From Hyphomicrobium zavarzinii ATCC 27496 (GTDB taxonomy: Bacteria > Pseudomonadota > Alphaproteobacteria > Rhizobiales > Hyphomicrobiaceae), in the NCBI RefSeq assembly GCF_000383415.1, contig NZ_KB911255.1, positions 480,001-544,000 on the forward strand: a stretch of 64,000 nucleotides of DNA. Reading direction: 5' to 3'. Under the pieces are notes generated by a model. The model saw only the letters and a program-made list of their open reading frames with translations, had not been told where the DNA came from and made no database searches. Shown one piece after another: positions 6,222 through 39,882 of this stretch (within the stretch, counting starts at the first letter, position 1; each line of letters opens with the position of its first letter). Made by a program: the position numbers and the translations under genes.

Positions 6222-9200
6222 ATGTTGGCAGGGGCGTCTGGGTGGCTGAGGCGTCATGTCGGTCGTGGAAACAGTCGTGGCTGCGATAACGTGACTCATG
6301 TCAGTCCCAGAGACCGGCTTCGTGCCCTCTCTCCCAAAGCATCCAAGCTGCGCACCGCCTCGCCGGAGGACCGGGCTCCAGCAGATTTGCGCACTCTCTT
6401 TCTGCGTCAATGCAGCCGCCTCGGCGCGACGACGGTCGCCTACGCGCTGCTGGCCGACAATCTCGGCATAGCCTGCCAGATCACTTACGAAGAGCTGCAG
6501 CGGCGGGTGTTCACTCTCGCCTATGCCCTGGCCGCGCGTTGCGAGCCGGGGGAGCGTGTGCTTCTCGCGTTCGACAACGGTCTCGAAAGCATCGAGCTGT
6601 TCTGGGCGTGCATCGTGGCCGGCGCGGTGCCCATTCCGGCGCCAGCGCCAGCGCCGCGGCAGTTTGCGGAAATCGGATACCGTCGCCTGCAGGGCATCGC
6701 GGCCGATGCCGGCGCAAGCCTTGTCGTCACCACCGCAGACCAGCTCGCGAAGCTGCCGCTGCCAGTGCCTGATAATTGGGTGTCTTACGAGGCGCTCGAT
6801 GGAGGTCTCGCGACGGCACCGCCAGACGTCACGGTTTCGGAAAGCGATCTTGCGTACCTGCAATATACGTCCGGCTCGACCAGCGAACCTCGCGGAGTAG
6901 AACTCACGCACGCCAACGTGCTGCATCACTGCGCGGTGATCACACGCACAGCGGATTCGAGCACGGAACCGGTCAGCTCCCTCAATTGGCTCCCCTGGTT
7001 TCACGATTTCGGGCTTGTGCAGGGCGTGATCGCGCCGCTCTACAAGGGCGCGACCTCCTATCTTATGCCGACTGTCTCGTTCATGCGCAGGCCGCTTTCG
7101 TGGCTCGAGGGAATAGCCAAATATCGCGTCTCGCATAGCGGTGGGCCGGATACTGCGTACCTGTCTTGCGTGAGAGCTCTAGCCCGCCGTCCGAACTGGA
7201 CGGTGGATCTCGGCTCCTGGTCTCTGGCGACGAGCGGCGGAGAGCCGGTTCGCGCCGATACCGTCCAGGCTTTCCTGCGCGCTTTCGCTCCGCATGGGTT
7301 TCGTAGCGAGGCTTTCGCGCCGGCCTACGGAATGGCGGAGGCCGTTCTCGCCGTAAGCCTCAATTGCGAGGAAACGCCGCCGCGTTTTCTACGCTTGGAC
7401 AGCGCCGCCCTCGAGCGCAACGAGGTTTGCGAGGCGCCAGGCCATGCCGCCGACGCCAAGACGCTCGTCGGGTGCGGCGCGGTGCTCGATGGGCTCGATC
7501 TTCGCATCGTCGACGCGGAAACTGGCGTTGAGCGTGCGCCGAACCGGGTTGGCGAAATCTGGGTGCGCGGGCTGACCATCGGGCAAGGCTACTGGGGGAA
7601 GCCGGACGAGAGCCGCGAGGCGTTCGGCGCAGAGCTCGCGGGAAGCGGCGAGCGCTTCCTGCGTACCGGCGATCTCGGCTTTCTGCACGATGGTCAGCTC
7701 TATATTTCCGGGCGCCGCAAAGACCTGATCGTCGTGCATGGGCGCAATCTTTATCCGCAGGACATCGAGCATACGGCGGAGGCGGCACATGATGCCGTGC
7801 GCGAAGGTGGCGTTATCGCCTTGGGCATCGAACGATCCGTCGGGGAAGCCGTGGTGCTGCTCGCCGAATGTTCGGGGAGGCCTGACGAGGCCGCAATCCG
7901 TGACCTGGCCGAGCGTATTAGGCGTGAAGTGAGCGCGGAGCACGGCGTCGAGGTTCACGATGTCGTGGTGTTGAAGCGCGGGGCGTTGCCCCAGACTTCG
8001 AGCGGAAAGCCGCAACGTGCTGTCGCGCGCCAGCGCTATCTCGCACGCGGCTTCGAGGGTGAGAGGCTCAATGGCGGACCGGCCGTGCAGGCCAGCCGGG
8101 ATCCTGCGGATGCCACCGAACGCGTTGTCGCCGACGCGTGGATGGCTGTGCTGGGTCTCGATCGCTGCAATGTGGACGATGACTTCTTCCTGCAGGGCGG
8201 AAACTCCCTCACCGCGACACAGCTCGTCTCGCGCCTGAAAGCTGCCTCCGGCGTGGATCTCGCGATCCGGAGTGTGTTCGAGGCGCCGACCATTGCCGGT
8301 CTCGCGCGGAAGCTTCGGGACGAAGCGGGCCGCTCCGTTTCTTCGTGCGTGGATCGAGGGCAAGGCGGCGAGATCGTTTTGGCAGACGCTACGCCGCTGT
8401 CCTTCTCGCAGGAACGCATGTGGTTCATTCACCAGCAGGCGCCGGAAAGCCCTGCCTACCACATGCCGCTCGCCTTGCGGCTCAGGGGCACGGTCGATGC
8501 GGATGCGATGGAGGCGGCATTCGCCCGCGTCATCGAGCGTCACGATATTCTACGGACGACGTTCGAGACGACTGCGTCCGGAGTCGAGCCGCGCGTTCAC
8601 CTGGCCATGCACGTTCCGCTTCGCCGTGTTGCGCTTTCGGCCGCCGATCCCGCGGCGCGGGCCGAGGAGCTGGAGCGCCTGCTTGCGCGCCTGACACACG
8701 AGACGTTCGATTTTGAGCGCGGCCCGTTGATGCGGACCTACCTCGTCGAACTCGGGGCGGGGGAGGCGGTTCTGCTCATCGTGATGCATCATATCATCGG
8801 CGATCAGTGGTCGTTCGCCGTGCTGGCGCGCGAGCTTGCGCACTTCTATCGCGCGGCTCTTGGCGCCGAAGTGGGGCTGCTGCCTCCTTTGGTCGCGCAA
8901 TATGCGGATTACGCCGCGTGGCAGCGCAGCACGTTTGCCGGCGCGCGGCGTGAGCGTGAGGAAGCGTACTGGGAACAGGAGCTTGCCGATCTCGAGCCGT
9001 TTGCGCTCGCTTCCGATGCGCCGCGTCCCAATCATCCGCTCTATCGCGGCGGCCGTGTGCGGGTGCCGCTCGATCCCGGTCTTGTGAAGGAATTGACGGC
9101 GCTGGGCGCTCGTCACGCGGCGAGCCTTTCGATGGTGATGATGGCGGCGCTCGACGCGCTGCTGCACCGTCATTCCGGGCGAACGGATATTTCGTTCGGT

Positions 9201-12341: not shown

Positions 12342-13448
12342 ATGGCCGGATATCGCAATCCTCTTTGTGTCTCGCTCGCCGTTGCGGCGGCCGGCTGGGC
12401 AAGCCTTTTCGAAGTAAGGGCTCAAGACATGGTGCGCGCGCCCGCGGAGAGCTGGCAGGAGCACAGGCTCGGTCCCAAGCCGGGTATTTCGGTCATGTGG
12501 GTGGGGCACAGCCTCATCGAGCAGAAGGCGGACTCGGCGTGGGGCCGCGTCGACATCATGTCGGTCGTCGGCAGGCTGGCGGAGAGCCGAAAGCTTGCCT
12601 ACACCATGACGGATCACACGCTGTTCGGCTCCCCATTGTCGGCCCTCTGGCGCGGGCGGCCACACAGCTACGATCGCGACGCTTCTCCGATGGCCAAGAA
12701 GCGAGCGGTCTTCGAAACGGAGGCGGGGCGTTACGATACGCTCGTTGCGACGGAGGCTGTTCCGCTTGCGGGAACGCTCAAGTACGAGTTCAGCCCCTAT
12801 TATCTGCGCAGCTTCTACTGCACCCTGCTCAAGGCCAATCCTAAGGCACGCGTCTATCTCTACCAGACGTGGGTGAACTTCCAGGGCTCGCATCGGGCTG
12901 GAGGCAAGCCCGCGCCCGAGGGTTTCGATTGGCGCGCCGAGATGAAGGCGGAGCGGGTGCTGTGGGATGAACTTGCGGACGCGGCCCGGAAGCCGTCCGT
13001 CGTCGCGCCTCATTGGCTGCATCGGCTCGGCTGGACCTCGACATCAGATGCCGGTTGCGGCATCGAGGATCCCATTTATTCGGCCCCGGTGGGCGACGCA
13101 CTCCTGGCGCTCGATGCGCGTATGGCGGCTCCGAAGCCGGGCGATCGTTTTGAATGGCCAGACGGAAGGCCGTTTCGCCTGATCGATATGGTGGCCAATC
13201 CGGTCGTCGACTCTGCCACCGGCGCGCTCAGAGATCCCTCGAAGCCATTCGACGACATTCACGCGAGCCTTGCTGGCATCTACTTCTCGGCGCTGGTGCA
13301 CTTCGCGACGCTCTATCGGCAAAGTCCGGCCGATCTTCCATCGCCGCCCGAGATCGGCGAGCCGCTTGCGCGAACGCTCCAATGCATTGCGTGGGAGACT
13401 GTCGCTAAAAACCCGCGTTCGGGTGTGCTTGGGGACGCGGACTGCTAG
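12342..13448 (+). CDS. Secreted SGNH-hydrolase-like protein coupled to the NRPS
   Basis: 368 residues, starting 3 bp after the NRPS stop. The N-terminus reads as a signal peptide (NPLCVSLAVAAAGWASLFEVRAQD). MWVGHSLIEQ near residue 51 resembles block I of SGNH/GDSL hydrolases (Ser in GHS). FDDIHASLAGIYFSALVHFA near the C-terminus fits the late DxxH block with Asp and His. The middle part (YLYQTWVNFQG) is also seen in such proteins. Family knowledge: these are esterases or acyl-transfer enzymes acting on acylated sugars or lipids. Inferred role: periplasmic cleavage or transfer of the acyl product of the NRPS or of an EPS acyl group. Convergent with the glycosidase gene, with 7 bp between stops. 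Confidence 0.6.
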   Translation: MAGYRNPLCVSLAVAAAGWASLFEVRAQDMVRAPAESWQEHRLGPKPGISVMWVGHSLIEQKADSAWGRVDIMSVVGRLAESRKLAYTMTDHTLFGSPLSALWRGRPHSYDRDASPMAKKRAVFETEAGRYDTLVATEAVPLAGTLKYEFSPYYLRSFYCTLLKANPKARVYLYQTWVNFQGSHRAGGKPAPEGFDWRAEMKAERVLWDELADAARKPSVVAPHWLHRLGWTSTSDAGCGIEDPIYSAPVGDALLALDARMAAPKPGDRFEWPDGRPFRLIDMVANPVVDSATGALRDPSKPFDDIHASLAGIYFSALVHFATLYRQSPADLPSPPEIGEPLARTLQCIAWETVAKNPRSGVLGDADC

Positions 13449-13455: not shown

Positions 13456-16044
13456 CTATTGCAGGAACAGCCAGTGCGAGCGGATGTCTGGCGTGAGGCG
13501 CAGAAGCGTGTAGCCTTCGGCGGTGGTTTCGAGCGGCACGGGTGACAGGACGCCTTCGCGATCCGCTTTGTAGGCCTTGAGCCCAGCCCGCGCGCGAATT
13601 CTGATTTCCCCTTCGACGGGCTCGGTGAGATACGGCAGACGTCCCTGCACCTCGGGTGTCGACCGGGCCGAGATCGAAACCATAAGCCTGCTCGACTGGG
13701 GCAAAGGCTCGCCGTCGAGGCTCTGAACGGCAACTGCGGCATTTGCGGTGCTCAGAGCTACGGTGACGTCGCGCAGCGCGATTGTCTTTCCGCCGAGCCA
13801 GCCGCTCGCGATCTGGGATTTCGCAGTGTTGACCGTGAAGACGCCTTGCTGCCAGTCGCGGCAGAGCTCGCCGGTGTCGGAACAAACGCTGGTCTTGCCT
13901 TCCCCGATGGCGTCGAAATCGGGATCGGTGATCTGTTTTGCGCTGCTTGCCGCAGGCTGCTCGGTGATCCAGCTCAGGGCCGGCATCTGGGGCACCCTGA
14001 TGCGCAGCTTTGAGGTTTCGGTGAGGGTTCTGATGGCGCGCGAGGTGCGTGCGTTGACCTCGGTCCCCGTAAACACCTTTTCAGGCAGGTCGAGCTCGTA
14101 TGTGCTCTTAGCCTCGCTCACATGCTTGGCGCGGAACAGAAGAGCGGCGGCCGGCATGGTCGCGAGCAGGGCCGGATCATTGTAACCCTCCCAGTTTCCG
14201 ACGGAGGCGTAGCCGTTCATGGGGGCCTGGGTATAGGCGTACTGAAGCAATGCGTTCCAGCCCTGGAGGCTTGCGACGGAGGCGAGATGGGCTGGAACCT
14301 GGAAGCGGTCGAATACGGGGAATGGCTCGACGTTCCACTCGCTGACGGAAAACGGCTTGTTGACGATCGCGCCGCCGGAGATCCAGCTCATCAGGCTCGG
14401 CGTGAAGCGCGGATTGTTCTCGACCTCGTTGGTGCCGCCGTAAGCGTGCGCATCCACCATATCGCCTTCAGCGAGCGAGGTAAGGCCGGACGTATTCATG
14501 CCGCCCCAGTAGTTGGTGCCGACGATCGGCACCTTGACGCCGAGCTTACGCAAGTGGCTCGTCATGTCGCTGAAATAGGCGTGTTCTAGGTCGGCGAGGA
14601 AGATCTTCGACGCCCCGAACTCCCAGCTTCGCCAGACCTTGCTCTTATCGAGCCCGGATTTCGCCGCGAACGCGTCGGCGCGTGCGAGATAGCGCTCCGA
14701 ATGCCAGGGCACGTTCTTGTCCGGCAACAGGCCGTTTCCGTAGTGCTGGGTGAGGTCGTTCTCATTCGTGATCAGCACGGTGACGACGGCCGGATCATCC
14801 TTGTAGGCGAGCCCGGTGTGAGGGTTCACATGCGAGAGGTAAGCGTCCGCGAACTCCTTCGTGCGGGCCTTGATGCTGTCGTTGACATACATGTAGCCCT
14901 TCATTTCGGCCGTGGCACCGTCCTTGTCCGCGATCTCCTGGAACGCATCGACGCCGTCGGCCTTCTTGAGCTTCCGTCCAACGTGGAGGTCCAGCCAGAC
15001 GTAGATGCCTTCGTCCCGGAGACACTTGATCCACCAGTCGATCTTCTCGAGCGAGGCGGCGTTGAGGGAAAGGGTGTTCGGCGGCTCGGCGCCGAAGATG
15101 TTGGGTGAGACCCAGGCCGAGTCGTGGTGATGAATGCGGACCAGATTGAAGCCAAGCTTCGAAATGCGCTTGGCCTGATTGCGCACGAGCTCGGGCGTGG
15201 TGCCCTGGAACAGCGCGTAGCCCGACAGGTTCGTGCCCCAGAAGCGGGCCTTGGTTCCATCCTCGAACACCAGGTCCTCGCCGACCGCGTGCAGGAAGCC
15301 CCGCTTTCCGGCGGGCTTCTCTTCGGCGTTAAGGAAGCTCAGGTCGACAGGCGTGCGGTTCCAATGGATGTCGCTTGCCCACCAGGTGTCCTTCTTCTCG
15401 CCCAGGCGCTCGGAGAGAGTGGGCACGAACTCGCCCGGAAGGGACACCGTCATCTTGAGATCGAGTGAATCGGGCCTGGTGTTCTTCTGGAGGAGATAGG
15501 CGCGGATCTCGTTACGGTTTCCCATCTCGAAGCTGAGGCTTTCGACGGGTTTGTCGAACGTGATCGTCAGGGGTGGCTTGTCCGGCTCCAGAAGCAGCGA
15601 CCATCCCATCCGGTCGGGACGCACGTCCGCCACGGGATCGAAACCCTTGCGCTTCAGCGCGTCGCTCGAAATCCTGAAGATAATGGTGCCGAAGACGTCC
15701 GTGGCGCGCTCCGGATCCTCCTTAAGCCGCAAAGCCCAAGTGGCTTTGCCGGGCTCCGAAAGCTCCACATCGGCATCGAGTGTCATTTTCTCGGCTGCGT
15801 CTCCGCGCACCGAGTAGCGGCGCAGGGGCTCCACCACGCTCGTCACCAGGCCAAGGCCGAGCCAGGACCACTCACCGCGCCAGAAACTGAACTCGGCATC
15901 CACGACGGTCGAGGTTTTGTATTCGACCCTGAAAAGGCCGGTATCGGGGTCGAATTTGGCGTGCGCCTGGGCCATTGCGGCGCTGGCGCAGAAGAGCATG
16001 GACAGTGCGATCAGAGCGGATCGGACTACGCGTTTTGCGATCAT
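13456..16044 (-). CDS. Secreted GH5-like glycoside hydrolase
   Basis: 862 residues. Signal peptide MIAKRVVRSALIALSMLFCA followed by SAAMAQA. A beta-rich N-terminal region of about 200 residues precedes a TIM-barrel part: FWGTNLSGYALFQ, RISKLGFNLVRIHHHDSAW (the GH-A Arg/His pattern), then VLITNENDLTQHYG, where Glu of NEN is the likely acid/base, and KPFSVSEWNVEPFP, where Glu of SEWN is the likely nucleophile. It is the last gene of a minus-strand run starting at 21156, so it may trim or release the polysaccharide. GGAGGAT precedes the ATG by 8 bases. The exact family and substrate are not determinable by eye. Confidence 0.78.
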   Translation of the reverse strand: MIAKRVVRSALIALSMLFCASAAMAQAHAKFDPDTGLFRVEYKTSTVVDAEFSFWRGEWSWLGLGLVTSVVEPLRRYSVRGDAAEKMTLDADVELSEPGKATWALRLKEDPERATDVFGTIIFRISSDALKRKGFDPVADVRPDRMGWSLLLEPDKPPLTITFDKPVESLSFEMGNRNEIRAYLLQKNTRPDSLDLKMTVSLPGEFVPTLSERLGEKKDTWWASDIHWNRTPVDLSFLNAEEKPAGKRGFLHAVGEDLVFEDGTKARFWGTNLSGYALFQGTTPELVRNQAKRISKLGFNLVRIHHHDSAWVSPNIFGAEPPNTLSLNAASLEKIDWWIKCLRDEGIYVWLDLHVGRKLKKADGVDAFQEIADKDGATAEMKGYMYVNDSIKARTKEFADAYLSHVNPHTGLAYKDDPAVVTVLITNENDLTQHYGNGLLPDKNVPWHSERYLARADAFAAKSGLDKSKVWRSWEFGASKIFLADLEHAYFSDMTSHLRKLGVKVPIVGTNYWGGMNTSGLTSLAEGDMVDAHAYGGTNEVENNPRFTPSLMSWISGGAIVNKPFSVSEWNVEPFPVFDRFQVPAHLASVASLQGWNALLQYAYTQAPMNGYASVGNWEGYNDPALLATMPAAALLFRAKHVSEAKSTYELDLPEKVFTGTEVNARTSRAIRTLTETSKLRIRVPQMPALSWITEQPAASSAKQITDPDFDAIGEGKTSVCSDTGELCRDWQQGVFTVNTAKSQIASGWLGGKTIALRDVTVALSTANAAVAVQSLDGEPLPQSSRLMVSISARSTPEVQGRLPYLTEPVEGEIRIRARAGLKAYKADREGVLSPVPLETTAEGYTLLRLTPDIRSHWLFLQ

Positions 16045-20552: not shown

Positions 20553-20595
20553 CACCGCAACTCTCAAACTCTCCGCACCCGGCACGGCGGCGTCC

Positions 20596-23067: not shown

Positions 23068-23072
23068 CTCCC

Positions 23073-24855: not shown

Positions 24856-25185
24856 GCGTCGCCGGGAAGCGCGCTTTCATTCGACACCTGTCAGTCAGAT
24901 GACTGATTTATAACTCGGCCCTCTGCCTCCGAAAATATCAGTCAGCTGATGGAGTTGACCCCGTTGGCGTGCCCGTTCCGCCTTTACGGTGGATCAGCAA
25001 CGTTAACCAATTTATTTGTTTATCCTTTCCAAAACGTTGATGTAACGAAATATTATCCACGCATCCAAGCCTGAAATTTTACGGTATGGCGCGCTGGACC
25101 GGGGCGATGGAGCACGTCTGCGCATGCTTATTTTCGAGCGCGACGGCCAAAGAATTAGAATTGCGCGCGCGTGGTCGGGACAGTT
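24856..25185. promoter_or_regulatory. Intergenic region before the EPS-priming transferase
   Basis: 330 bp without a gene. The left half holds a perfect palindrome and a related half copy (annotated separately). The middle holds CGTTAACCAATTTATTTG at 25001-25018 in an AT-rich stretch, a likely promoter area for the sugar-phosphate transferase. Confidence 0.5.
24891..24949. promoter_or_regulatory. Two operator-like TCAGTCA repeats
   Basis: TCAGTCAGATGACTGA at 24891-24906 is a perfect palindrome with a 2-base centre. TCAGTCAGCTGA at 24938-24949 repeats the left half and part of the right half, 47 bp (about 4.5 helical turns) further on. The pair sits upstream of the EPS-priming transferase and may bind a dimeric regulator; the regulator is unknown. 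Confidence 0.45.
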
Positions 25186-30900: not shown

Positions 30901-33900
30901 TTCGGCGTTACGGCAGCGGGCGACTATGTGCTCTGCCCGGAGCAGGGTCGCGACGGCTATGACGCGCTCGTGAAGGATCTCACGGGCGCGGGCGGCGTCC
31001 CGCAGCGGATCGTGCATCTTTGGCTGGCGACGCACGACGAGAGCTTCCGTCCGGGATCGAGCTTCTTCCATCGCAATCAGGAGCGGGGCTTCTACAGCTT
31101 GTTCTTCCTGGGGCAGGCGCTGTCTGATGCCGGCCATACGCTTCCGACCCACATCACGGTTCTGACCAACGGCATGCAGCGCATCGGCAACGAGTGCCTT
31201 GCCTATCCCGACAAGGCGACGGTGCTGGGTCCCGCGCAGGTGCTTCCCCGCGAGATGCCCAATGTGTCCGTGCGGGTGATCGATATTCCGCTCGCCACCG
31301 GCGGACGTGAGACGTTCGTGCGGCGTCAGCGTGCGCTGCTGGTGAAACGCCTTGCCGCCGCTTTGGATGCGCAGGGCGCGGAAGTCTCGGCGGCGGATCG
31401 CATCTGGGACGACATCCTGGCGGAGCCCTGCAACGAGATCGTCTGCTACCGGAAAGGCCGGCGCTGGACACAGAGTCAGGAGCCGCTTTCTCTCGACAAG
31501 GCCGGGGAAGGCGAGGCCGTGTTCCGCGAGCGCGGCGTCTATCTGATCACGGGCGGCCTCGGTGAGCTTGCAACGGCTTGCGCCGAGGATCTGGCGCGGC
31601 GTTTCAAGGCTCGGCTCGTGCTGGTGGCGCGCACTGCGCTGCCCGACAGCGCGGAGTGGGATGGCTATCTGGCCGCTTACGGCGAGAACGACCGCATCGG
31701 CCGTGCCATTGCCGCGGTTCGCAGGATCGAAGCTGCGGGCGGCGAGGTGGCCGTGGCGCAGGCCGACATCACCAATTCGGAGGCGATGCGCGCCGTCGTC
31801 GAGACGGCGAAAGCCCGTTTTGGCCGTCTCAACGGCGTGCTGCACACGGCCGGCGTCGTGAAGGACGATCTGATCGCCCTCAAGGCTCTCTCCGACATTG
31901 AGGACGTTTTCGCGCCCAAGATCCTCGGCACGCTGGTGCTTGCCGAGGTGCTCAAGAAAGAACCGCTCGACGTGATGGTGCTGTTCTCGTCGACGAGCAC
32001 CGATACGGCTCCGGCCGGTCAGGTCGACTATGTGGCGGCCAACGCGTTCCTCAACGCGTTTGCGGAAAGCCGTGTGGGGTCCAGCGTTCGCACGATCGCC
32101 GTGCATTGGGGCGTGTGGAAGGATGTCGGTCTGGCGGCGCGCGCCATTGCGCAGGCCGAGCAGCAAGATGCCGCGCCGGTTGTGGAAGCGGCGCTTGGGC
32201 CCTTGTTCGACCGGCGCGTGCGCGTATCGGACAAAGAAGAATGGCTCGAGGCGCGTCTCGACAGCACGCGCCATTGGGTGCTGAACGAGCATCGCCTTAA
32301 GAGCGGCCATGCCATCTGGCCGGGCACAGGCTACATCGAGCTGATCGCGGAAGCCCTCTCCGAGCAGCGGATCGAAGGGCCGTTCGAGATCGAGGATCTG
32401 ACGTTCCTCAGGCCCTTGCACGTTCCCGACGACGAACCGCGCACAGCGCGCGTCACGCTCACACCGGAGGCAGACGGCTATCGGATCGCGATCGACAGCG
32501 AGCAGCCCGGAGCAGCGCTCGTGCGTCACGCGGAAGCTATCGTGAGGATCGCGCCTTCCTCCAAGCGACGCGTTATCGATGCCGCCAGGATCGGGGCTGC
32601 CTGCGAGACGAAAGCGCTTGTCGCGGGTGACAAGCCGCATCGTTCGGCGCAGGAAGATCACCTGAGGTTCGGTGCGCGCTGGCAGGTGCTGCGCTCGGCC
32701 TCGTTCGGGCGTGGCGAGGCGCTGGCTCAGCTTGCACTGTCTGACGATTTCGTCACCGATCTCGATCACGGCTATCTGGTTCATCCTGCCTTGCTGGACA
32801 TCGCGACGGGTTACGCCATGAACCTGATCGACGGCTATTCGCCGGCGGCGGGCCTGTGGGTGCCGATGACGTACGGCAAGCTCTGCATCAACGGGGCGCT
32901 GCCTGCCAAGATCTGGAGCCACGCCCGCCTCAACACGTCGAAGGATCTGGGACCGGGCTACGCGACGTTCGACGTCACGATTGCCGACGCCGAGGGGCGT
33001 GTGGTGATCGAGGTCGAAGGCTTCACGATCAAGAAGCTCGCGGCTGGAACCGATCTCTCGGCGTCGCTCTCGAACGAAGGTGAGGCGAAGACGGCCGAGG
33101 CTTCCAAGGGAAGCGATACGGCGGAGCTCTCGCCCGCACTGGCGCGGCTTGCCGCCCAAGTCGATCAAGGCATTCTTCCGGGTGAAGGGTTCGAAGCGCT
33201 TTTGCGCGCAGTCGGCTCCGGTAAGCCGCAGGTGATCGTGAGCTCGATGGATCTTCCGGCGCTGCAGCGGGCTGCCGCGCGGGCCGAGGTTCAGGCGGCG
33301 GCATCTTCTACGACGTTCGAACGGCCGGATCTTGGTGTCGATTTCGTCGAGCCCGGCACGGATATCGAGAAGGCGCTCGCGGGCTTCTGGACCGAGCTCC
33401 TCGGCGTGAAGAAGATCGGCATTCACGACAGCTTCTTCGATCTCGGCGGGCATTCGCTGATCGCGGTTCGCCTGTTCCGCATGATCAAGAAGGCGTTCTC
33501 CGTCGAGTTCCCGATTTCGGTGCTGTTCGAGGCCCCGACGATCGCGCAGTGCGCAGCCCTCATCGAGCAGAGTGGCGTGAAGCCTCAGAGCGATGCCGGT
33601 GCGGATGCAGGAGCGACTGTCACTGCCCTCGAGCGGCCGCGCCTGCTGCACCTGGTGCGGATGGACAGCGGCAAGGATCCCCGGCGCACGCCGTTCTTCC
33701 TGTGCGCGGGCATGTTCGGCAACATTCTCAACCTGCGGCATCTGGCAGTGCAGATCGGGGCAGACCGTCCCGTTTACGGCCTCCAGGCGCGGGGCATCTA
33801 CGGCGGTCAGGCGCCGCACGAGACGTTCGAGGAGATGGCGCGAGACTATCTTGCGGAAGTTCGCACCGTGCAGCCGCATGGTCCCTATCTGCTCGGCGGG

Positions 33901-34491
33901 TTCTCGGGTGGCGGGCTCGTGGCCTACGAGATGGCGCAGCAGCTTCGGGCCGCTGGAGAAGAGGCCGCGATCGTCGTTCTGCTCGATACGCCCTATCCGG
34001 CGAACCCCGTGCTCTCCGCGCAGGACCGCTTGATGATGAAGATGCAGGATGTCGAGAAGGAAGGTCTCTCCTTCTTCAGCAACTGGGTGCGCCGCCGCAT
34101 TGAGTGGGAGCAGCGGAAGGCGCAGGCGCGTGCCGGCGTGCAGCCCAAGTCTGCCGAGCAGTTCCACAACGAGGAGATCGAGGCTGCCTTCCGCCGTGCG
34201 CTTTCGCGCTATCAAGGTGCGGCCTACGACGGGTCCGTTCTGTTGATGCGTCCGAAGCTGCAGGTCGCCTACCGGGTGACCGGCGGGCGCGAGCTCAATC
34301 ACGAGCGCAGCCTGCTGCGTGCAGACAATGGATGGTCGCCTTTCGTTGCGGACCTCGCGATCCACGAGGTTCCGGGCGATCACGACAGCATGGTTCTTGA
34401 GCCGAACGTGCGCGTTCTGGCGAGCCACCTCCGCCAGGAGCTGATGCGGGCCGACCGGAGCCGGACGGTTCAGCAGATCGCGGCCGAGTAG
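28000..34491 (+). CDS. Type I polyketide synthase: KS-AT-KR-DH-ACP-TE
   Basis: 2163 residues. KS about 10-445 with the full triad Cys184 (TACSTSL), His320 (ECHGTGT) and His360 (NIGHL). AT about 545-850 with Ser634 in GHSMGE and the specificity region IDIAAHSRML, neither clearly malonyl nor methylmalonyl. KR about 1180-1390 (YLITGGLGELA, Tyr1344 in VDYVAANAF). DH about 1420-1680 (EHRLKSGHAIWPGTGY, one residue longer than HxxxGxxxxP). ACP with Ser1819 (DLGGHSL). TE with Ser1969 (GFSGGG) and His2128 (PGDHDS). No enoylreductase or methyltransferase was seen. KR precedes DH, which differs from the usual modular order. The enzyme should extend a starter once, reduce and possibly dehydrate it, and release it. 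PKS genes occur in capsule/K-antigen clusters (WcbR, RkpA) as well as in siderophore clusters. Confidence 0.92.
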   Translation: MSESESGASQSDIAIVGMALRVPGARSVEEFWHNLREGVESIETRTPEQLLQAGESPDNLRRKNYVPRTAELRGFEGFDAEFFGFSPKEAAIMDPQHRQFLECAWEALEDSTRTPERIAGPVGVFAGCGMGSYFYFNVCSHRALVDKTGMFLLRHTGNDKDFLATRASYLFDLHGPSVNVQTACSTSLVAVHYACQSLLSGECEMALAGGVTIELPQGRGYLFQDGEILSTDGHCRAFDHRASGTVFGSGTGVVVLRRLADALADGDPIHAVIKATAINNDGASKAGYLAPSVTGQAEAIVEAQALAGLEASSIGYVECHGTGTYLGDPIEIEALTQAFRQTTDKTGFCRVGSVKSNIGHLDTAAGVVSLIKAVLSVKHGEIPPTLGFEKPNPAINFAASPFVVNDRLTPWTSTGAPRRAGINSLGVGGTNAHVIVEEAPLRKVPAARADAGPQVLVLTAKSRKALDEAGKRLAKHLEANPDLGLEDVAHTLLNGRRHFEHRRVAAVADRADAMALLAQPDTHRVFTHTPVEGTAEAVFLFPGGGAQYPHMARALYRDEPAFRRVVDEGLSYLPAPAAQEIRDIWLPQGAEAADAVERLLRPSLQLPAILIVEVALARLWMSWGVKPAALIGHSMGENAAACVAGVLSFERAVKLVRLRGELFDEVPPGGMLSVALPAEALKARLPADLDVASINAPELCVVSGSNDALDAFRQVLVAEGIEASRIPIDIAAHSRMLAPILERFQDFLRSTPLSAPTIPIVSNLTGTWLTAAEARDPAYWTKHLRSTVRFGDGMALLAAQPSRVYIEVGPGRVLGSLAKAQGIPANQVINSLPHSEEAIDDNLHFLTALGRAWAVGVAVPLEKLSEGADPQRVNLPTYAFQHQSYFLERIAASGAAQEDASPAKIADMANWGWQPVWKQSSPNVRLDAEQEASSWLVFLDDGGIGAGLVARLRELGHTVRTVTLGDAFGVTAAGDYVLCPEQGRDGYDALVKDLTGAGGVPQRIVHLWLATHDESFRPGSSFFHRNQERGFYSLFFLGQALSDAGHTLPTHITVLTNGMQRIGNECLAYPDKATVLGPAQVLPREMPNVSVRVIDIPLATGGRETFVRRQRALLVKRLAAALDAQGAEVSAADRIWDDILAEPCNEIVCYRKGRRWTQSQEPLSLDKAGEGEAVFRERGVYLITGGLGELATACAEDLARRFKARLVLVARTALPDSAEWDGYLAAYGENDRIGRAIAAVRRIEAAGGEVAVAQADITNSEAMRAVVETAKARFGRLNGVLHTAGVVKDDLIALKALSDIEDVFAPKILGTLVLAEVLKKEPLDVMVLFSSTSTDTAPAGQVDYVAANAFLNAFAESRVGSSVRTIAVHWGVWKDVGLAARAIAQAEQQDAAPVVEAALGPLFDRRVRVSDKEEWLEARLDSTRHWVLNEHRLKSGHAIWPGTGYIELIAEALSEQRIEGPFEIEDLTFLRPLHVPDDEPRTARVTLTPEADGYRIAIDSEQPGAALVRHAEAIVRIAPSSKRRVIDAARIGAACETKALVAGDKPHRSAQEDHLRFGARWQVLRSASFGRGEALAQLALSDDFVTDLDHGYLVHPALLDIATGYAMNLIDGYSPAAGLWVPMTYGKLCINGALPAKIWSHARLNTSKDLGPGYATFDVTIADAEGRVVIEVEGFTIKKLAAGTDLSASLSNEGEAKTAEASKGSDTAELSPALARLAAQVDQGILPGEGFEALLRAVGSGKPQVIVSSMDLPALQRAAARAEVQAAASSTTFERPDLGVDFVEPGTDIEKALAGFWTELLGVKKIGIHDSFFDLGGHSLIAVRLFRMIKKAFSVEFPISVLFEAPTIAQCAALIEQSGVKPQSDAGADAGATVTALERPRLLHLVRMDSGKDPRRTPFFLCAGMFGNILNLRHLAVQIGADRPVYGLQARGIYGGQAPHETFEEMARDYLAEVRTVQPHGPYLLGGFSGGGLVAYEMAQQLRAAGEEAAIVVLLDTPYPANPVLSAQDRLMMKMQDVEKEGLSFFSNWVRRRIEWEQRKAQARAGVQPKSAEQFHNEEIEAAFRRALSRYQGAAYDGSVLLMRPKLQVAYRVTGGRELNHERSLLRADNGWSPFVADLAIHEVPGDHDSMVLEPNVRVLASHLRQELMRADRSRTVQQIAAE

Positions 34492-34555: not shown

Positions 34556-35212
34556 TCAGCAATAGAGAGCTATGGCGCTCGCGAGTAGGCCGTTGGCCAC
34601 GCGTATGCGGCCGCGGGCGGTGTGGCCGCGCGGAAACTCGCCGGCGTCGCGCTCGAATGTGGCCTTGAAAGTCTCCGCGCGGAGATCGATCTCGATTGAG
34701 AGGTCTTCGAATTCGAGCATTTCCCGCGTCACCGGGAACTGGCACTTGAACGTGCATTCCTTGGCGCTGAAGAGGGCGCGGGCGAGGAGATCTCGCTCGT
34801 TTCGCGCGGCCGATTGCAGCCACGCAATTTCCTCGGCCCGGCCGATCGTTTCCAGGACGCCTGGAGGCAACGTCTCGGCCGGTTCCAGGTCGATGCCAAT
34901 GGCGCGCACACCGTCGTCCGCGCGCCCGACCGCCACGGCGCAATGGCAATCCGTGTGCGTGATGCTGCCGACGTAGCCTGCCGGCCAGAGCGGCATTCGA
35001 TCGGGGCCTGGGAGAAGGGGCTTTCTAGGAGCGCCGAGCTTTGCAAGCGCGTCATGGGCTGCATTTCGCCCTGCCAGAAACTCACGCCTGCGCTTCGCCA
35101 CAGCAGGGGCGACGGCTGCTTGCTCCTCGGGAAAGGATGCGGCGAGGCCGTCCCCGATCGCACGTTCGACGATCGCGATGCGTGGGTCGAGGAGGCCCGC
35201 GAAGATGCTCAC
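34556..35212 (-). CDS. 4'-phosphopantetheinyl transferase, EntD/Sfp type
   Basis: 218 residues. RRREFLAGRNAAHDAL (41-56), GYVGSITHTDCHCAVAVG (79-96), GIDLEPAE (106-113; Asp108 and Glu110 as Mg ligands) and LFSAKECTFKCQFP (147-160) are the EntD-type blocks. It should activate the carrier domains of the three megasynthases (Ser662, Ser1724, Ser1819 and the carrier of the neighbouring synthetase). Its start overlaps the stop of that synthetase by 4 bases (ATGA), so the two are translationally coupled. Confidence 0.92.
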   Translation of the reverse strand: MSIFAGLLDPRIAIVERAIGDGLAASFPEEQAAVAPAVAKRRREFLAGRNAAHDALAKLGAPRKPLLPGPDRMPLWPAGYVGSITHTDCHCAVAVGRADDGVRAIGIDLEPAETLPPGVLETIGRAEEIAWLQSAARNERDLLARALFSAKECTFKCQFPVTREMLEFEDLSIEIDLRAETFKATFERDAGEFPRGHTARGRIRVANGLLASAIALYC

Positions 35213-38200
35213 GATACGCCGCGTGTCCGCTCCGGCACGGCCCGGCGTCCCAGCATGGCCTGGCGACGTGCGGCGGCGCGATCAGCAACCTGGCTCAGGT
35301 GCTTTCCGGCCTGTCCGCGATCCTGGATGTGTCCCGCAAGACCGGCCACTGTCGGGAAGCGATAGATGTCGGTGATGGTGAGCTCGGGCGCGATGCTGGC
35401 CTTGAGGTCGCGGTGAAGCTGGACGGCCAGCAGCGAGTGGCCGCCAAGCGTGAAGAAGTTGTCGAACGCACCGACCCGTTCCACGCCGAGCAGCTTCTTG
35501 AAGGCATCCGACAGGCGGAGCTGCAAGTCGTTCGTCGGGGCGATGTACTCGACGGGAGCCTTCGTGCGGCAGGCTTCCTCGGGGCGGGGCAGAGCCTTGC
35601 GGTCCACTTTCGCGTTAGGGGTCAGCGGGAACGATTGCATGGTGACGAAGTGCGCCGGCACCATGAAGTCCGGTAGCGCATGACGCACGTGAGCCTTCAA
35701 TTCCGCATCCGGCACGGGCTCGCGCTCGTAGCGCACGTACGCGACGATGCGCACGTCGTTCGCTTCGTCCTCTCTCGCCATTACAACTGCTTCGGCGACG
35801 GCGGGGTGGAGACCGATACGCGCTTCGATCTCACCGAGCTCGATGCGATAGCCGCGCACCTTGACCTGATGATCCGCGCGGCCGAGGAAGTGTATCTCGC
35901 CATCCTCGCCGATGCGCACGAGATCGCCCGTGCGATAGACGCGCTCGCCTGGGACGAACGGATTTTCGAGGAAGCGCTCGCGGGTGAGGTCGTCACGGCC
36001 GAGATAGCCGCGGGTGACGCCGTCGCCGCCGATGTGGAGCTCGCCCGGGACGCCCGGCGGAACGAGCCGGCGCGCGTCGTCGAGAATGTAGAGCTGCGTG
36101 TTGGCGATGGGCGTTCCGAGCGGCACGGCGCCGCTGCCCGCAGCGGTGGCCGGTCCCGTCGAGGACCAGATGGTGGTTTCGGTGGGGCCGTACATGTTCT
36201 CGACCGTGGCGGCGGTGGTTTTCCTCAGGTCGTTGAGGAGCGCAGGCTGAAGCGCTTCGCCGCCGATGAACAGGTGGCGGATGGACTGAAGCGCGGCGCG
36301 ATCCTCGTCGCTCATGAGGATCATGGCGGCCATGGACGGCGTGCACTGCATATGGGTAACGCCGTGGCGGCGCACGAGGGCGGCGAGGCTGCCGTGCTCG
36401 CCCATGTCGACGATGGAGTTGCCCTGGGCGTGAACCGCGCCCACGACTTCGGCGAGAGGCTCCAGTGCCTGCAGAGCCACTTCCGTCGAGACGCCGAAGT
36501 CGATGAGGCACGCAATCTCGTTGACGCCGATCGCCTTGAGCTGCTCGGTGCGCGCCATGGCGTCGTCGAAGGTGCCGAAGAGGCCGCTATCGTCAAAGTA
36601 GCGCAGGAACGCGAACTCGATGATGGCATCGACCTCCTCGGGATCGAGGGTCTGGAGATCGATGTCCATGGGCTGTGTGACGCCCTTGGGCTTCTTGAAG
36701 GCGGGGAAGGCCCAGGCATACTGCTTTATCAGCGCCGCTGCGCTTCTGAGATAAGCCTTCATCGGCTCACGGGCGGCCGCGCGCACTTCTTCCCTGTCGT
36801 GCCCGATCAAGGTGTGCAGCATCAGCGTGACGGTGTAATCGGCTGGATTGCGTCCGGTCTCGGCGAGCGTTTCACGGTAGATGCGGATCTTGTCCGCGAC
36901 CTCGTCGATGGATTGGCCGAGAAGATGTGTGAGCACATTGGCGCCGAGGCGGGCTGCTTCGCGGTAGGTGTCCGGATTGCCGGCCGTCGTCACCCAGATC
37001 GGCAGCTCCTTGCTGACCGGGCGAGGCTGGGTGAGCACGTTCACCTGCTTGCCGCCGGGAGCGTCGAACTGCACGGCCTCGCCGCGCCAGAGACGTCGCA
37101 CGGCGTCGATGTCGCGCAGCATGGCGCTCTTGTTGTTGGGCGGCGCGTTTTCCGGGCGCAGCAGGAAGTCCTCGGGCATCCAGCCCGACGCGAACGCGAT
37201 GCCCGCGCGGCCGTTGCTGATGTTGTCGATGACCGCCCATTCCTCGGCCACGCGCGCGGGGTGATGCAGCGGCAGCACGCAACTGCCGGCGCGGATGTCG
37301 AGGTTGCGGGTGACGGCCGCGACGGCCGCACCGGTTACTGACGGGTTGGGGTAGGGGCCGCCGAAGGCGTGGAAGTGCCGCTCCGGTGTCCACACGGCGC
37401 GGAAGCCGCGTGTGTCGGCATAGCGCGCGCCCTTGAGCAGGAGCTGATATTTCCGCGGCCCCGCTCCATCGTCGTTGCCCCAGAAGTAGAGGCTGAAATC
37501 CATAGGTGCGTGGGCGCCTTGCCGCCGCTTCGCGGTCGTGGCGGCCCGTTGCTGGCTCGTGTGGACGACAACCGCAAAGCCGTTGGCCAGCGTCCAGAAC
37601 AGCTCGAGCACCGAGATGTCGAACGAGAGGCTGGTTACAGCCAGCCAAACGGGCTGCGTGTCTGCCGCGCGCGGAATGCGATCGTCCATTCCGGCGAAGA
37701 AGTTCACGACGTTCCTGTGCTCGACCATCACGCCCTTGGGACGCCCGGTCGATCCAGAGGTGTAGATCACATAGGCGAGGTTCGCGGAGGTTGTTTCGGT
37801 CTGCGGGGCCGATGCGGCGGCGCTCGCCTTGGAAGCTGCCTCCTCGACCGACAGCACATGGACGGCGCTGGTGCCAACCGGCGGCTGGAGGCCCTTCTCC
37901 GTGAGGACGATGGAGAGGCCGCTGTCCTCGATCATGAGGGCGATGCGGTCCTTCGGATAGATGGGATCGAGCGGAACGTACGCGCCGCCTGCCTTGAGGA
38001 TCGCGAGCGCGCCGACGACGAGGTCGCACGACCGGTGTACGTAGAGGCCGACGAGCGTATCCGGCTTCACGCCGAGGGAAACGAGCGTCTCTGCAACGCG
38101 GTTGGCTCGTGCATCGAGATCGCGGTAGGTCAGTTTCTCATCCTCGCAGATGAGGGCTGTCGCGTCGGGCGTGCGCGCTGCTTGCTGTTCGATCAGGCGA

Positions 38201-39882
38201 TGCACGAGTGCGGTGCGGTCGTAGGGGCGGCCCGTCTGGTTGCGGCCGACGAGCAGGGTTTCGACTTCCGCGTCCGACATGAGCGGAAGATCCGCGACCT
38301 TTTCGGGTGCGCTCTTGCTCGCTAACGCCGAGAAAACCGCCTGGATCTGACGTGAGATCGCATCGAGAGCGGTGCGCGGCAGACGAGCCGTGTCAGCGAG
38401 AACGTCAATGGCGTGTGCGCTGGGCGGAATGACGAAAGTGAGGATGCTTCCCGGGAGAGGCTCCGAGCTGGTGGATCCGCCCGTCAGTCGAATTGCGACC
38501 GTGGCGCGGCCGGGAGAAAGCTTTGGATTGCAGTTAACGAGATCTCCGGCATAGCCGCGGCGGCGGCGGGCTTCGGCCAGCTCCTTTGCGACGGAGGTGG
38601 AGAGAGAAGCTGTCGTCGTGTCCGATGCGACCTCGAGAGTCAGAGGGACGGCCGGTGCGATATAGCCCGCGAACGTAGCGCTGTCCGCGGCGAGGCGGTC
38701 GCCGACGAGGGCGATCCGGAAGCGGGACTGGTTGCCTGTGCGCGCAAAAAATGCGGCAAGCGCCGAGACAGTCCGCTCCGCCTCCCAGGTCTCGGGCAGG
38801 GGAAGCTGGATGGTCTCATACGCGGGGATCGCGCCGTCGTCTTTCGGCAGCACGCCGTTGAGATCGGGATCGCGCGCCTCCGTGAGGCGATCGCGGAAAT
38901 AGCTCTCGTTCTTCGCCAGCTCGTGCGTCAGCTCCGTGAGCCGGATGCTTTCGTCTGCGTCGAGCGGGCGGATCACCTCGCCCTTGGCGAGAACCGCGCT
39001 GGGATCGACAGCCTCACCCGCGCTGTCGCGGAGTGCCTTGATACGCACGCTGCCGTCGGCTGCGGCGAGGGTGGCGCCGCTCTTGTCGACATCGATCACC
39101 GTTCCTGGGCGCGCCGCGACGCTCGTCGTGTCGATTTCGAGATCGGTCACGGCGTAGGCGCCGGATGCGGTTCTGATCTTGGGCAGGCAGAGCGGGTTTG
39201 CGTAGCGCTGGCCGAAGGAGAGCGCGCGCTGAAGACGTCCGATCTGGCTGACCGACTGGCGGAAGTCTAGGGTGGCGGCGGCTTCGGGGCGTTTTGTCTT
39301 CCCGAAGTAGAGGCGCTCGCCGAAGGATTGCGGGCGGCCTTCGAGGCTTCCGCTCTCGATCTTCTCGATCAGCTCGGAGAACGAGGCAATGCCAGCTTCG
39401 AAGCACTTCGTATTCAGCGTGAGCGCTGTGTCATCGTCGCTGATCTCGAAGGCGCGCTCGGCGTAGATCGCGCCCTCGTCGATCCCCTCCGACAGTGCGT
39501 GCCAGGTGACGCCGTAGCCGGTCTCTCCGGCCAGGATGGCCCAGACCGGCGTGTTGAGGCCTGCGTAGCGAGGCAGAGGGCCATCATGGAAGTTCGCCGA
39601 GCCTTCACGCGCGCGCTGCCAGACACCCTTGGGGATGAGCCGGAGATTGGCGATGCTGAAGAACCAGTCGTAGGTGTAGGGCGCGAGATCCTGCTCGAGG
39701 CTGGCGCCGGGCGCCAGGGTCGGGATGCCGTGCCCTTTGGCCCAGGACGCGACCTGATCGTTGGCCGTAACGACCGCTTCGATCTTGTGCTGCCGCTCTC
39801 GCAGCGCCTCTCCGCATTGGACGAGGAGCGATTCATCGCCCATCACCACACACGCAATCTTCTTTGCTGCGGCTTGCGTCAT
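35209..39882 (-). CDS. NRPS-like protein: formyltransferase-A(luciferase-like insert)-PCP
   Basis: 1557 residues. N-terminal formyltransferase domain about 1-300 with NFHDGPLPRYAGLN near 95 and VTWHALSEGIDEGAI (catalytic Asn/His/Asp set). Adenylation domain from about 560 with VIYTSGSTGRPKG near 700. After FDISVLELFW the A domain is interrupted at about 790-1150 by a luciferase-like FMN monooxygenase (MDFSLYFWGNDDG, WTPERHFHAFGG, RAGSCVLPLHHPARVAEEWA, FASGWMPEDF), then resumes at NMYGPTETTIW. Carrier with DNFFTLGGHSL near 1484. There is no condensation or thioesterase domain. This is the MupA/Atu3671 type of architecture. My manual pocket alignment reads D-I-L-Q-F-G-M-I-W-K, close to the glycine code. 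ATG 39882 follows AGGG; the frame is open to 39945. Confidence 0.92.
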   Translation of the reverse strand: MTQAAAKKIACVVMGDESLLVQCGEALRERQHKIEAVVTANDQVASWAKGHGIPTLAPGASLEQDLAPYTYDWFFSIANLRLIPKGVWQRAREGSANFHDGPLPRYAGLNTPVWAILAGETGYGVTWHALSEGIDEGAIYAERAFEISDDDTALTLNTKCFEAGIASFSELIEKIESGSLEGRPQSFGERLYFGKTKRPEAAATLDFRQSVSQIGRLQRALSFGQRYANPLCLPKIRTASGAYAVTDLEIDTTSVAARPGTVIDVDKSGATLAAADGSVRIKALRDSAGEAVDPSAVLAKGEVIRPLDADESIRLTELTHELAKNESYFRDRLTEARDPDLNGVLPKDDGAIPAYETIQLPLPETWEAERTVSALAAFFARTGNQSRFRIALVGDRLAADSATFAGYIAPAVPLTLEVASDTTTASLSTSVAKELAEARRRRGYAGDLVNCNPKLSPGRATVAIRLTGGSTSSEPLPGSILTFVIPPSAHAIDVLADTARLPRTALDAISRQIQAVFSALASKSAPEKVADLPLMSDAEVETLLVGRNQTGRPYDRTALVHRLIEQQAARTPDATALICEDEKLTYRDLDARANRVAETLVSLGVKPDTLVGLYVHRSCDLVVGALAILKAGGAYVPLDPIYPKDRIALMIEDSGLSIVLTEKGLQPPVGTSAVHVLSVEEAASKASAAASAPQTETTSANLAYVIYTSGSTGRPKGVMVEHRNVVNFFAGMDDRIPRAADTQPVWLAVTSLSFDISVLELFWTLANGFAVVVHTSQQRAATTAKRRQGAHAPMDFSLYFWGNDDGAGPRKYQLLLKGARYADTRGFRAVWTPERHFHAFGGPYPNPSVTGAAVAAVTRNLDIRAGSCVLPLHHPARVAEEWAVIDNISNGRAGIAFASGWMPEDFLLRPENAPPNNKSAMLRDIDAVRRLWRGEAVQFDAPGGKQVNVLTQPRPVSKELPIWVTTAGNPDTYREAARLGANVLTHLLGQSIDEVADKIRIYRETLAETGRNPADYTVTLMLHTLIGHDREEVRAAAREPMKAYLRSAAALIKQYAWAFPAFKKPKGVTQPMDIDLQTLDPEEVDAIIEFAFLRYFDDSGLFGTFDDAMARTEQLKAIGVNEIACLIDFGVSTEVALQALEPLAEVVGAVHAQGNSIVDMGEHGSLAALVRRHGVTHMQCTPSMAAMILMSDEDRAALQSIRHLFIGGEALQPALLNDLRKTTAATVENMYGPTETTIWSSTGPATAAGSGAVPLGTPIANTQLYILDDARRLVPPGVPGELHIGGDGVTRGYLGRDDLTRERFLENPFVPGERVYRTGDLVRIGEDGEIHFLGRADHQVKVRGYRIELGEIEARIGLHPAVAEAVVMAREDEANDVRIVAYVRYEREPVPDAELKAHVRHALPDFMVPAHFVTMQSFPLTPNAKVDRKALPRPEEACRTKAPVEYIAPTNDLQLRLSDAFKKLLGVERVGAFDNFFTLGGHSLLAVQLHRDLKASIAPELTITDIYRFPTVAGLAGHIQDRGQAGKHLSQVADRAAARRQAMLGRRAVPERTRGVS

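Follow-up and report, generated by a model that had tools for sequence, protein, structure and literature searches.

The 64,000-nucleotide stretch of Hyphomicrobium zavarzinii ATCC 27496 analysed here (contig NZ_KB911255.1, positions 480,001 to 544,000; hereafter the window) carries a Wzx/Wzy-dependent exopolysaccharide (EPS) locus together with nonribosomal peptide synthetase (NRPS) and polyketide synthase (PKS) genes. Enzymes of these types usually make antibiotic-like molecules. The genes for a PKS, for a formyltransferase-adenylation protein with an inserted luciferase-like monooxygenase (LLM) domain, and for a phosphopantetheinyl transferase (PPTase), often joined by one for an SGNH-fold protein, are a recurring cassette of soil and marine bacteria in Hyphomicrobiales and Rhodobacterales, found singly elsewhere. 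Cassette and EPS genes are very probably one conserved unit in most relatives examined. Open reading frames (ORFs) were called by codon-position GC, and domains were assigned by Pfam and NCBIfam scans.

The PKS, PPTase, and LLM genes follow the EPS genes directly on the right as one uninterrupted block. The PKS (28000..34491, plus strand) is a mono-modular type I enzyme with ketosynthase (KS), acyltransferase (AT), ketoreductase (KR), dehydratase (DH), acyl carrier protein (ACP), and thioesterase (TE) domains in that order; the Pfam scan found no enoyl reductase (ER) domain in it. The window protein was aligned with those of 66 loci, which are the ones with a long enough PKS among the 76 PKS-bearing loci of the census described below. 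The KS, AT, KR, DH, and ACP sites and the TE serine were kept in 67 of 67 proteins, and the TE histidine in 65. The PPTase is of the Sfp type (34556..35212, minus strand; PF17837, PF01648). The LLM protein (35209..39945, minus strand; TIGR04020, 471.2 bits, cut-off 244.45) has the layout formyltransferase-A(LLM)-A-PCP, where A is an adenylation domain and PCP a peptidyl carrier protein; its true start is probably downstream of the GTG. The monooxygenase is embedded in the A domain, with AMP-binding matched in two stretches, Bac_luciferase at 824-1141, and AMP-binding_C at 1372-1446.

The formyltransferase Asn/His/Asp residues were kept in 80 of 81 aligned LLM proteins, with one gap; the PCP serine was present in 78, the other three having gaps. 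The positions of the A-domain code were placed by hand using GrsA motifs, and the code read DIL(S/A)(M/F/L/Y)GM(I/V)WK in all 81 rows, the last place being gapped in two. With these hand-placed positions, the window code is DILSFGMIWK, identical to DILQLGMIWK at 8 of 10 places. According to the available text of PMC12283262, four glycine-activating domains with a monooxygenase domain all have DILQLGMIWK, and the monooxygenase of such domains cleaves the glycine backbone. LLM domains of assembly lines have been read as hydroxylases, some as chain-cleaving oxidases (PMC8739492, in part). The closest PDB match of the LLM protein was PuwE (6ket, E 3.2e-103). The code appears glycine-like. Because of this code, the formyltransferase residues, the LLM literature, and the PuwE match, our best guess for the starter is a glycine that would be N-formylated and alpha-hydroxylated. 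It may then be extended on the PKS, or cleaved to an amide. A flavin reductase (20596..21156, minus strand; PF01613, 8.4e-36), overlapping a GT4 glycosyltransferase ORF on the same strand, is a candidate supplier of FMNH2 to the LLM domain.

Within the EPS locus lies a lipopeptide-type synthetase (6222..12338, plus strand) with the domain order FAAL-PCP-C-A-PCP-TE, C being a condensation domain. It has the layout of a FAAL-initiated NRPS: a FAAL-like domain, named by best similarity, precedes the carrier, C, and A domains. Of 103 genomes of the family, two (that of the window and G067) have a full-length relative, in both with an adjoining SGNH gene. The same FAAL domain order occurs in Hydrogenophaga pseudoflava (46% identity), with an SGNH gene at its end and the PKS (there in two ORFs), LLM, and PPTase genes upstream. 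The SGNH partner is hence kept beside the FAAL unit in 3/3 cases seen in such a setting. FAAL-C-A proteins of the general kind are common: at E 1e-250, matches were found in 23 of 397 genomes drawn across the phylum, counting that of the window. The FAAL unit is an optional extra; its rarity in the family (2/103) ruled it out as a constant cassette member.

The SGNH protein (12342..13448, plus strand) begins 3 bp after the FAAL gene and had no Pfam or NCBIfam match. Its AlphaFold2 model (mean pLDDT 75.6, pTM 0.79; N-terminal 40 residues of low confidence) matched the DUF4886 structure 4i8i best among solved structures (Z 19.2, rmsd 3.0 over 222 residues). The next matches were SGNH hydrolases and carbohydrate acetylesterases, and the periplasmic SGNH domain of a lipopolysaccharide acetyltransferase (6se1) stood at rank 50 (Z 10.5). 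The catalytic serine and the Asp-x-x-His pair (S57, D304, and H307) were invariant in 13 rows. The protein is probably secreted; its N terminus looks signal-like by eye, and a simple hydropathy count flagged 59% of 27 relatives but not the window protein. In five Rhodobacterales loci (L175, L177, L194, L203, and L208), the SGNH protein is fused to a domain of another family. The tested member of this adjoining or fused family (L170) had no Pfam match, and the GH5-like protein of the window had no blastp match in the family at E 1e-3; therefore, we do not call that family a glycoside hydrolase.

The EPS locus spans the left edge of the window to about 27.5 kb and is Wzx/Wzy-dependent: a flippase, a polymerase, an initiating phosphoglycosyl transferase, a Wzz protein, and an outer-membrane exporter share one locus, with the Wzy-type gene mostly outside the window. 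This gene (genome 478878-480395) starts 1.1 kb upstream, and its 3' end (1..395, plus strand) encodes part of a polytopic protein of the O-antigen ligase family (PF04932, 46.8 bits, cut-off 31.7) with 9 transmembrane (TM) segments by a simple hydropathy count. A Wzx-type flippase (434..1864, minus strand; PF13440, 5.9e-40) and a Wza-like polysaccharide export protein (2086..3666, minus strand; PF02563, 4.7e-13) follow. Next are two GT2 glycosyltransferases on the plus strand. One (4057..5079; PF13641) belongs to a family termed GT2a here, the relatives of which sit between the PKS and LLM genes in Rhodobacterales. The other (~5046..6086, start not fixed; PF00535, 3.7e-15) is matched by four relatives in tblastn at 41-57%. 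A minus-strand ORF at 5034-5993 was ruled out as a gene, the relatives showing a GT2 on the plus strand.

Beyond the SGNH gene, the minus strand encodes the GH5-like protein (13456..16044; PF00150, 26 bits, barely above the cut-off of 23.5), a Wzz chain-length regulator (16075..17214; PF02706, 2.8e-07), a BY-kinase/CpsD-like ATPase with weak matches under both cut-offs (17262..18029; TIGR01007, 4.9e-06; TIGR03815, 1.9e-06), an EpsU-like GT2 (18037..19227; NF041865, 3.8e-55, under its cut-off), and an EpsE-like GT4 (19215..20678; NF041876, 5.1e-62, under its cut-off). The dTDP-rhamnose genes rmlC, rmlB, rmlD, and rmlA (21330..24855, plus strand) come next. Compared with an intact relative in G067, rmlD (23073-23950) is split by a frameshift near 23417-23426; the gene may be broken, or the assembly wrong at this point. 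The locus closes with a WcaJ-type undecaprenyl-phosphate glucose phosphotransferase (25171..26652, plus strand; TIGR03023, 427.6 bits, cut-off 410.75) and a WecG/TagA/CpsF glycosyltransferase (26714..27463, minus strand; TIGR00696, 123.3, cut-off 69).

An earlier note, made from the letters of this DNA, had named the synthase, SGNH, PPTase, and reductase genes. Every one was borne out, by the Pfam and NCBIfam scans or, for the SGNH gene, by the DUF4886/SGNH fold. The note had further placed these genes between or within runs of EPS genes and not beside them. This holds for the FAAL, SGNH, and flavin reductase genes, which are the only ones inside the EPS run with EPS genes on both sides, but not for the PKS, PPTase, and LLM genes at the right-hand end.

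A TIGR04020 protein above the cut-off was found in 16 of the 103 family genomes, and a P0004-like PKS (E 1e-60 or better) in 16/16. The PKS and LLM genes lay on one contig within about 13 kb in 13 of these; G025, G089, and G094 are fragmented assemblies. The readable blocks were flanked by wcaJ, wza, wzx, wzz, wecG, or fragments of them, the contigs of G025 and G094 being too short. A variant of the LLM protein, led by a C domain and carrying an internal methyltransferase domain instead of the formyltransferase, occurs in five genomes of one genus, as seen by Pfam on one genome and by clustering for the other four; these loci keep the PKS, SGNH protein, PPTase, and wcaJ alongside. The window Wzz protein had a match in 15 family genomes, nine of them without an over-cut-off LLM protein. 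Among the nine, the best Wzz match (42% identical) was in G001, and G013 has a PKS. The claim that the EPS genes never occur without the cassette was thus ruled out.

Several local peculiarities were observed in the family. PPTase and PKS genes adjoin in G067 (C2, ~823.8-824.4 kb), with the PPTase in two tblastn pieces, and it may be broken there. An asparagine-synthase-like gene adjoins the PKS in L097 (1016-2971; G065, by Pfam) and in G027 (C1, 203817-205787, by clustering). An HlyD protein and two RND pump proteins (ACR_tran) lie beside the cassette in L103 (1054-11220) and in four genomes of the same genus. These pump clusters were found by clustering, with Pfam run on one of the five genomes, and in 4/5 the pump and synthase genes are separated by one for a GNAT (Acetyltransf_6) protein.

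The PKS and LLM pair was also found on plasmids of Aminobacter, Shinella, Rhizobium, Neorhizobium, Ruegeria, Parasedimentitalea, and Paracoccus. Six plasmid loci, taken from 20 records covering at least 80% of the PKS, all had EPS hallmarks (6/6). In all four Rhodobacterales loci among the six, a GT2 gene lies between the PKS and LLM genes. On the Paracoccus marcusii plasmid (L129:7968-11846), a further NRPS gene stands among the glycosyltransferase genes of the EPS region.

To count the association, named genomes were scanned with ten aligned LLM proteins taken from loci of this kind, and the best 80 of at least 579 relatives were taken. Judged by their record titles, most belong to Rhodobacterales and Hyphomicrobiales; Hydrogenophaga pseudoflava and metagenome-assembled genomes (MAGs) labelled Myxococcales, Deltaproteobacteria, and Anaerolineae are also included. 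Some redundancy exists, as L144 equals G083:C94, L156 equals G094:C485, and L118 and L144 are identical. The EPS hallmarks scored were wcaJ, wza, wzx, wzz, byk, and wecG, with profile models built from family clusters (EPS-linked members of one family). The PKS was present in 76 loci, the PPTase in 68, and the SGNH protein in 32. The PKS and LLM genes were at most 2 kb apart in 73/76. At least one hallmark was found in 67/80 loci and at least two in 49/80; in the 67 hallmark-bearing loci, the nearest hallmark lay at a median of 707 bp from the PKS-LLM block. By contrast, other PKS loci of the same family had at least one hallmark in 1/20 cases and at least two in 0/20, and arbitrary 20 kb stretches of cassette-bearing genomes, hand-chosen at round coordinates, in 2/20 and 0/20. 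These control loci were shorter, averaging 16.2 kb and 20.0 kb, whereas the 80 loci averaged 23.4 kb. Of the 59 cassette loci 24 kb or longer, 54 had one hallmark or more and 44 had two or more. Thirteen loci had none (L143, L144, L146, L150, L156, L168, L182, L193, L195, L200, L211, L220, and L222); eight of them are shorter than 24 kb, and of the other five, L168, L182, L193, and L222 carry GT2a. A family with 7-10 predicted TM segments occurs near the PKS in 28/80 loci. Its tested member (L181, 20214-21716) had no Pfam match, and the family may be an unrecognised Wzy polymerase.

An order-wide even draw, limited to E 1e-110 and a completeness of at least 90, gave a TIGR04020 protein above the cut-off in 14 of 397 genomes, 12 of them with PKS and LLM pairs. 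The two left out are G332, with no such PKS nearby, and G240, with a multi-module PKS line. An EPS hallmark lay within about 20 kb of the pair in 10/12, a count that pools two slightly different EPS tests (six family genomes and eight new ones). The combination is therefore confirmed as no local accident, generalising across relatives, and the linkage of cassette and EPS genes is strong, not absolute.

The genes of the unit also diverge in step. Across the named loci, pairwise distances of the PKS correlated with those of the LLM protein (0.93, 66 loci), Wzx (0.92, 36), and WcaJ (0.85, 20), and less with GT4 (0.44, 40) and the SGNH protein (0.37, 23). In Rhodobacterales alone, the corresponding values were 0.85, 0.78, 0.83, 0.23, and 0.14. 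Correction for rpoB was done in 26 of 29 Rhodobacterales genomes with PKS, LLM, and Wzx (two had no rpoB match). The partial Mantel correlations given rpoB were 0.91 for PKS-LLM, 0.77 for PKS-GT2a, 0.75 for PKS-Wzx, 0.72 for PKS-PPTase (n 24), 0.90 for PKS-WcaJ (n 10), 0.57 for PKS-WecG (n 12), 0.47 for PKS-Wzz (n 24), and 0.28 for PKS-GT4 (n 22). The PKS itself correlated with rpoB at 0.45 in these 26 genomes. From the corrected correlations and this last value, the synthases, the flippase, and the initiating transferase appear to travel as one unit whose history agrees only in part with the species tree.

Two readings had been offered in the earlier note: either the acyl or aminoacyl product decorates or anchors the polysaccharide, or two systems share the locus. 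The first is favoured for PKS, LLM, and PPTase (and SGNH) by the hallmark counts (67/80 and 10/12) and the divergence in step with Wzx and WcaJ; the FAAL synthetase does not belong to this constant set. Each gene set occurring without the other had been named there as evidence for unrelated systems. Both were seen in part, in the nine of 15 Wzz-bearing family genomes and in the cassettes of G322, G380, and L220. The EPS genes can thus do without the cassette, and the cassette is usually, not always, with EPS genes.

We propose, with confidence about evenly divided, that the cassette is a mobile tailoring unit of the Wzx/Wzy EPS pathway, making a small formyl-glycine-derived polyketide group for the polysaccharide. 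That the product becomes covalently part of the polymer is the best-supported reading, and we would put it neither above nor below an even chance. The co-occurrence, the kept catalytic residues, and the correlated divergence are observed, and all the steps between substrate choice and attachment, both included, are inferred. The PPTase would prime the carriers. The A domain would load glycine, the formyltransferase would formylate its amine, and the LLM domain, with FMNH2 from the flavin reductase, would hydroxylate its alpha carbon. The PKS would extend this starter with malonyl-CoA, KR and DH would reduce and might dehydrate the chain, and the TE would release or transfer it. The small acyl group would then go to a sugar of the undecaprenol-linked repeat unit, or to the polymer; in Rhodobacterales, the GT2 encoded between both synthase genes possibly helps to attach it. 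The decorated unit would exit via Wzx, Wzy, Wzz, and Wza. Transfer or trimming of the acyl ester might fall to the SGNH protein, which is presumably periplasmic. In this genome, an additional N-acyl aminoacyl group would come from the second, optional unit (FAAL-C-A-TE and its SGNH partner).

A number of observations weigh against this proposal. The pendant group, the acceptor sugar, and an acyltransferase that would move the group are postulated from the genes. A TE domain terminates both the PKS and the FAAL protein, which would suit a free product equally well. The SGNH gene was in just 32/80 loci, and SGNH divergence does not follow that of the PKS in Rhodobacterales (75/500 permutations were as high as the r of 0.14). 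The 80 loci were chosen by similarity to an EPS-linked query, so that 67/80 cannot be taken as representative of TIGR04020 proteins in general. Physical linkage alone could cause the correlated divergence, which thus supports a shared product and does not prove it. Some cassettes also stand apart from EPS genes. In G013, the PKS (61%) lies near a contig end; the genome has no over-cut-off LLM protein, and the 13 kb past the PKS held no EPS match. G322 has PKS and LLM genes without an EPS hallmark within 20 kb; its vicinity holds a UDP-glucose dehydrogenase, an epimerase, a membrane acyltransferase, and a polysaccharide-lyase-like adhesin. G380 also has the pair without a hallmark, with a larger PKS, and none of four genes tested was polysaccharide-like. 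The 30 kb contig of G240 has no hallmark, and its inclusion would change the order-wide count to 10/13. L220, an Anaerolineae MAG, has PKS and LLM genes without a hallmark or any scored glycosyltransferase family and is a real exception; there, the pair lies inside a larger NRPS/PKS cluster without EPS genes, which could be an ancestral or a separate use.

The TE domains and the cassettes of G322, G380, and L220 would also suit a cassette making a free metabolite, diffusible or held in the matrix (a signal, antibiotic, or surfactant), which travels with EPS genes since both serve life on surfaces. So would the RND pump cluster flanking the cassette in the five genomes of one genus, which fits the export of a small molecule and counts against decoration. 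We nevertheless think this account unlikely, if worth serious attention, as the cassette stays tightly near EPS genes across orders and diverges in step with Wzx and WcaJ. Moreover, the gene tables of the six plasmid loci, incomplete as they are, name adjoining exporters at two loci only: a TolC at the Aminobacter one and, at the Shinella one, a type I secretion pair. The partnership recurs across Hyphomicrobiales, Rhodobacterales, and one Hydrogenophaga genome despite differing gene orders and orientations, and hallmarks are few at control loci, which makes it quite improbable that two unrelated systems merely share one mobile region, by chance or because both are borne on plasmids or islands. 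The plasmid-borne cassettes of several genera and the partial tracking of rpoB, which indicates movement between lineages, would agree with such hitch-hiking.

RkpA and WcbR produce a lipid-like chain that anchors or carries a polysaccharide. By analogy, the PKS, with the FAAL unit in this genome, might make such an acyl chain. The mono-modular type I PKS in a polysaccharide locus resembles the rkp and wcb clusters, which join type I PKS and capsule genes (PMC3908369, available text), and the window has a FAAL-like domain. A PKS without an ER domain, however, is not expected to yield a saturated chain by itself, its constant partner is a formyl-glycine-type loading protein unlike a plain fatty anchor, and the FAAL unit is rare; an anchor is therefore an improbable product. 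A siderophore-like chelator, as might be made by Atu3671-type clusters, seems a very remote prospect. The LLM domain family bears the Atu3671 name (TIGR04020 MupA/Atu3671), and a TonB receptor gene (42880-45129) lies 3 kb from the window LLM gene. But this receptor matches the B12 receptor family best, falls under the cut-offs of both the B12 and siderophore families, and adjoins cobalamin genes. A tblastn search at E 1e-5 gave no match to it in the 80 named loci or in 23 family regions. No TonB receptor appears among the genes listed for the six annotated plasmid loci, one of which has iron ABC transporter genes about 16 kb off. The siderophore analogy drawn in the earlier note thus gained no positive support, its receptor not being kept in relatives.

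If decoration by the cassette is the right account, a recurrent orphan NRPS-like/type I PKS (T1PKS) cluster of Rhodobacterales and Hyphomicrobiales would be a decorator of matrix polymers and not a drug-like pathway. Genome mining would be redirected, and the want of an assigned free product for such clusters could be explained. A direct genetic test of assembly-line enzymes acting on polysaccharides would also become available. It is conceivable, with the balance slightly against it, that a widespread surface polymer has a repeat unit with an NRPS/PKS-built pendant group, a polyketide derived from formyl-glycine, the loading of which varies in one genus and is supplemented by FAAL units in three genomes; assembly-line chemistry would then serve to diversify the coat. 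Variable loading modules beside a constant PKS would suggest a means of varying surface chemistry.

The region to the right of the LLM gene is of another kind. It holds a TIGR04559 metallo-hydrolase of the pyrroloquinoline quinone (PQQ) 'quinoprotein relay' and then a SoxY-SoxZ fusion (40837-42778), with an adjoining TetR regulator. The TonB receptor, a DUF6925 protein, and cobalamin genes (CobB/CobQ-like, CobW, CobN, CbiC, and methylases) occupy 42880-58869. In the 23 family regions, clustering gave no relative of the TetR, metallo-hydrolase, SoxYZ, receptor, or DUF6925 proteins. Scanning 20500-40200 for promoters was uninformative: chance predicts 2.9 sigma-70-like sites and 14.5 terminator-like ones, and the scan gave 0 and 11.

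The earlier note had held the combination to be undescribed. An orphan NRPS-like/T1PKS hybrid of like layout is on record (PMC10584327), but no paper linking the cassette to EPS was found in the literature searched, outside which most subscription papers fall. The available text of that survey, of 37 genomes around Roseibaca, gives NRPS-like/T1PKS hybrids as the commonest unknown cluster type, in 18 species; the count of 18/37 is one of cluster type and not of one proven family. The survey reads the cluster as a source of bioactive molecules, and its main text does not use the words 'polysaccharide' or 'glycosyltransferase' (PMC10584327). A T1PKS-NRPS-like cluster is listed in PMC10221251 and a T1PKS/NRPS hybrid in PMC11225332, as far as their available text goes. 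The orphan cluster of Roseibaca domitiana is reported to have a 4,527-nt NRPS-like gene and a 6,333-nt T1PKS gene, separated by about 1 kb that holds one locus number (PMC10584327, in part). These sizes and this spacing match the LLM-GT2-PKS layout seen here, a likeness of layout alone.

Capsule loci with PKS genes are known from rkpA and wcbR (PMC3908369, in part). Like these capsule (K-antigen) loci, the window has a type I PKS within a polysaccharide locus; unlike them, it pairs the PKS with a formyltransferase-A(LLM)-PCP protein and a PPTase, and its pathway is Wzx/Wzy. All WcbR/RkpA sequences are said to have the KS motif DPQQR (PMC3908369, available text). The KS of the window PKS reads DPQHR, and for this reason it was not classed with them.

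Glycine-activating A domains with an embedded monooxygenase (MOX), which we take to be of the MtaG/MelG type, share with the window LLM protein a luciferase-like monooxygenase inside an A domain, that of the window protein being apparently of glycine type. The window protein differs from them in having a formyltransferase and no C domain in front, and in adjoining a PKS that ends in a TE of its own. By sequence, the closest solved LLM domain is that of PuwE, from puwainaphycin synthesis. In the puwainaphycin pathway, an aminotransferase and an oxygenase are proposed to make a 3-amino-2-hydroxy acyl chain (PMC4219810, available text). Unlike the window protein, PuwE belongs to a cyanobacterial PKS-aminotransferase-oxygenase-NRPS hybrid that makes a free lipopeptide. 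The SGNH O-acyltransferase and esterase domains of polysaccharide modification (6se1; CE2/CE3/Axe2) have the SGNH fold and the S-D-H triad in common with the window SGNH protein, which is by far closest not to them but to DUF4886.

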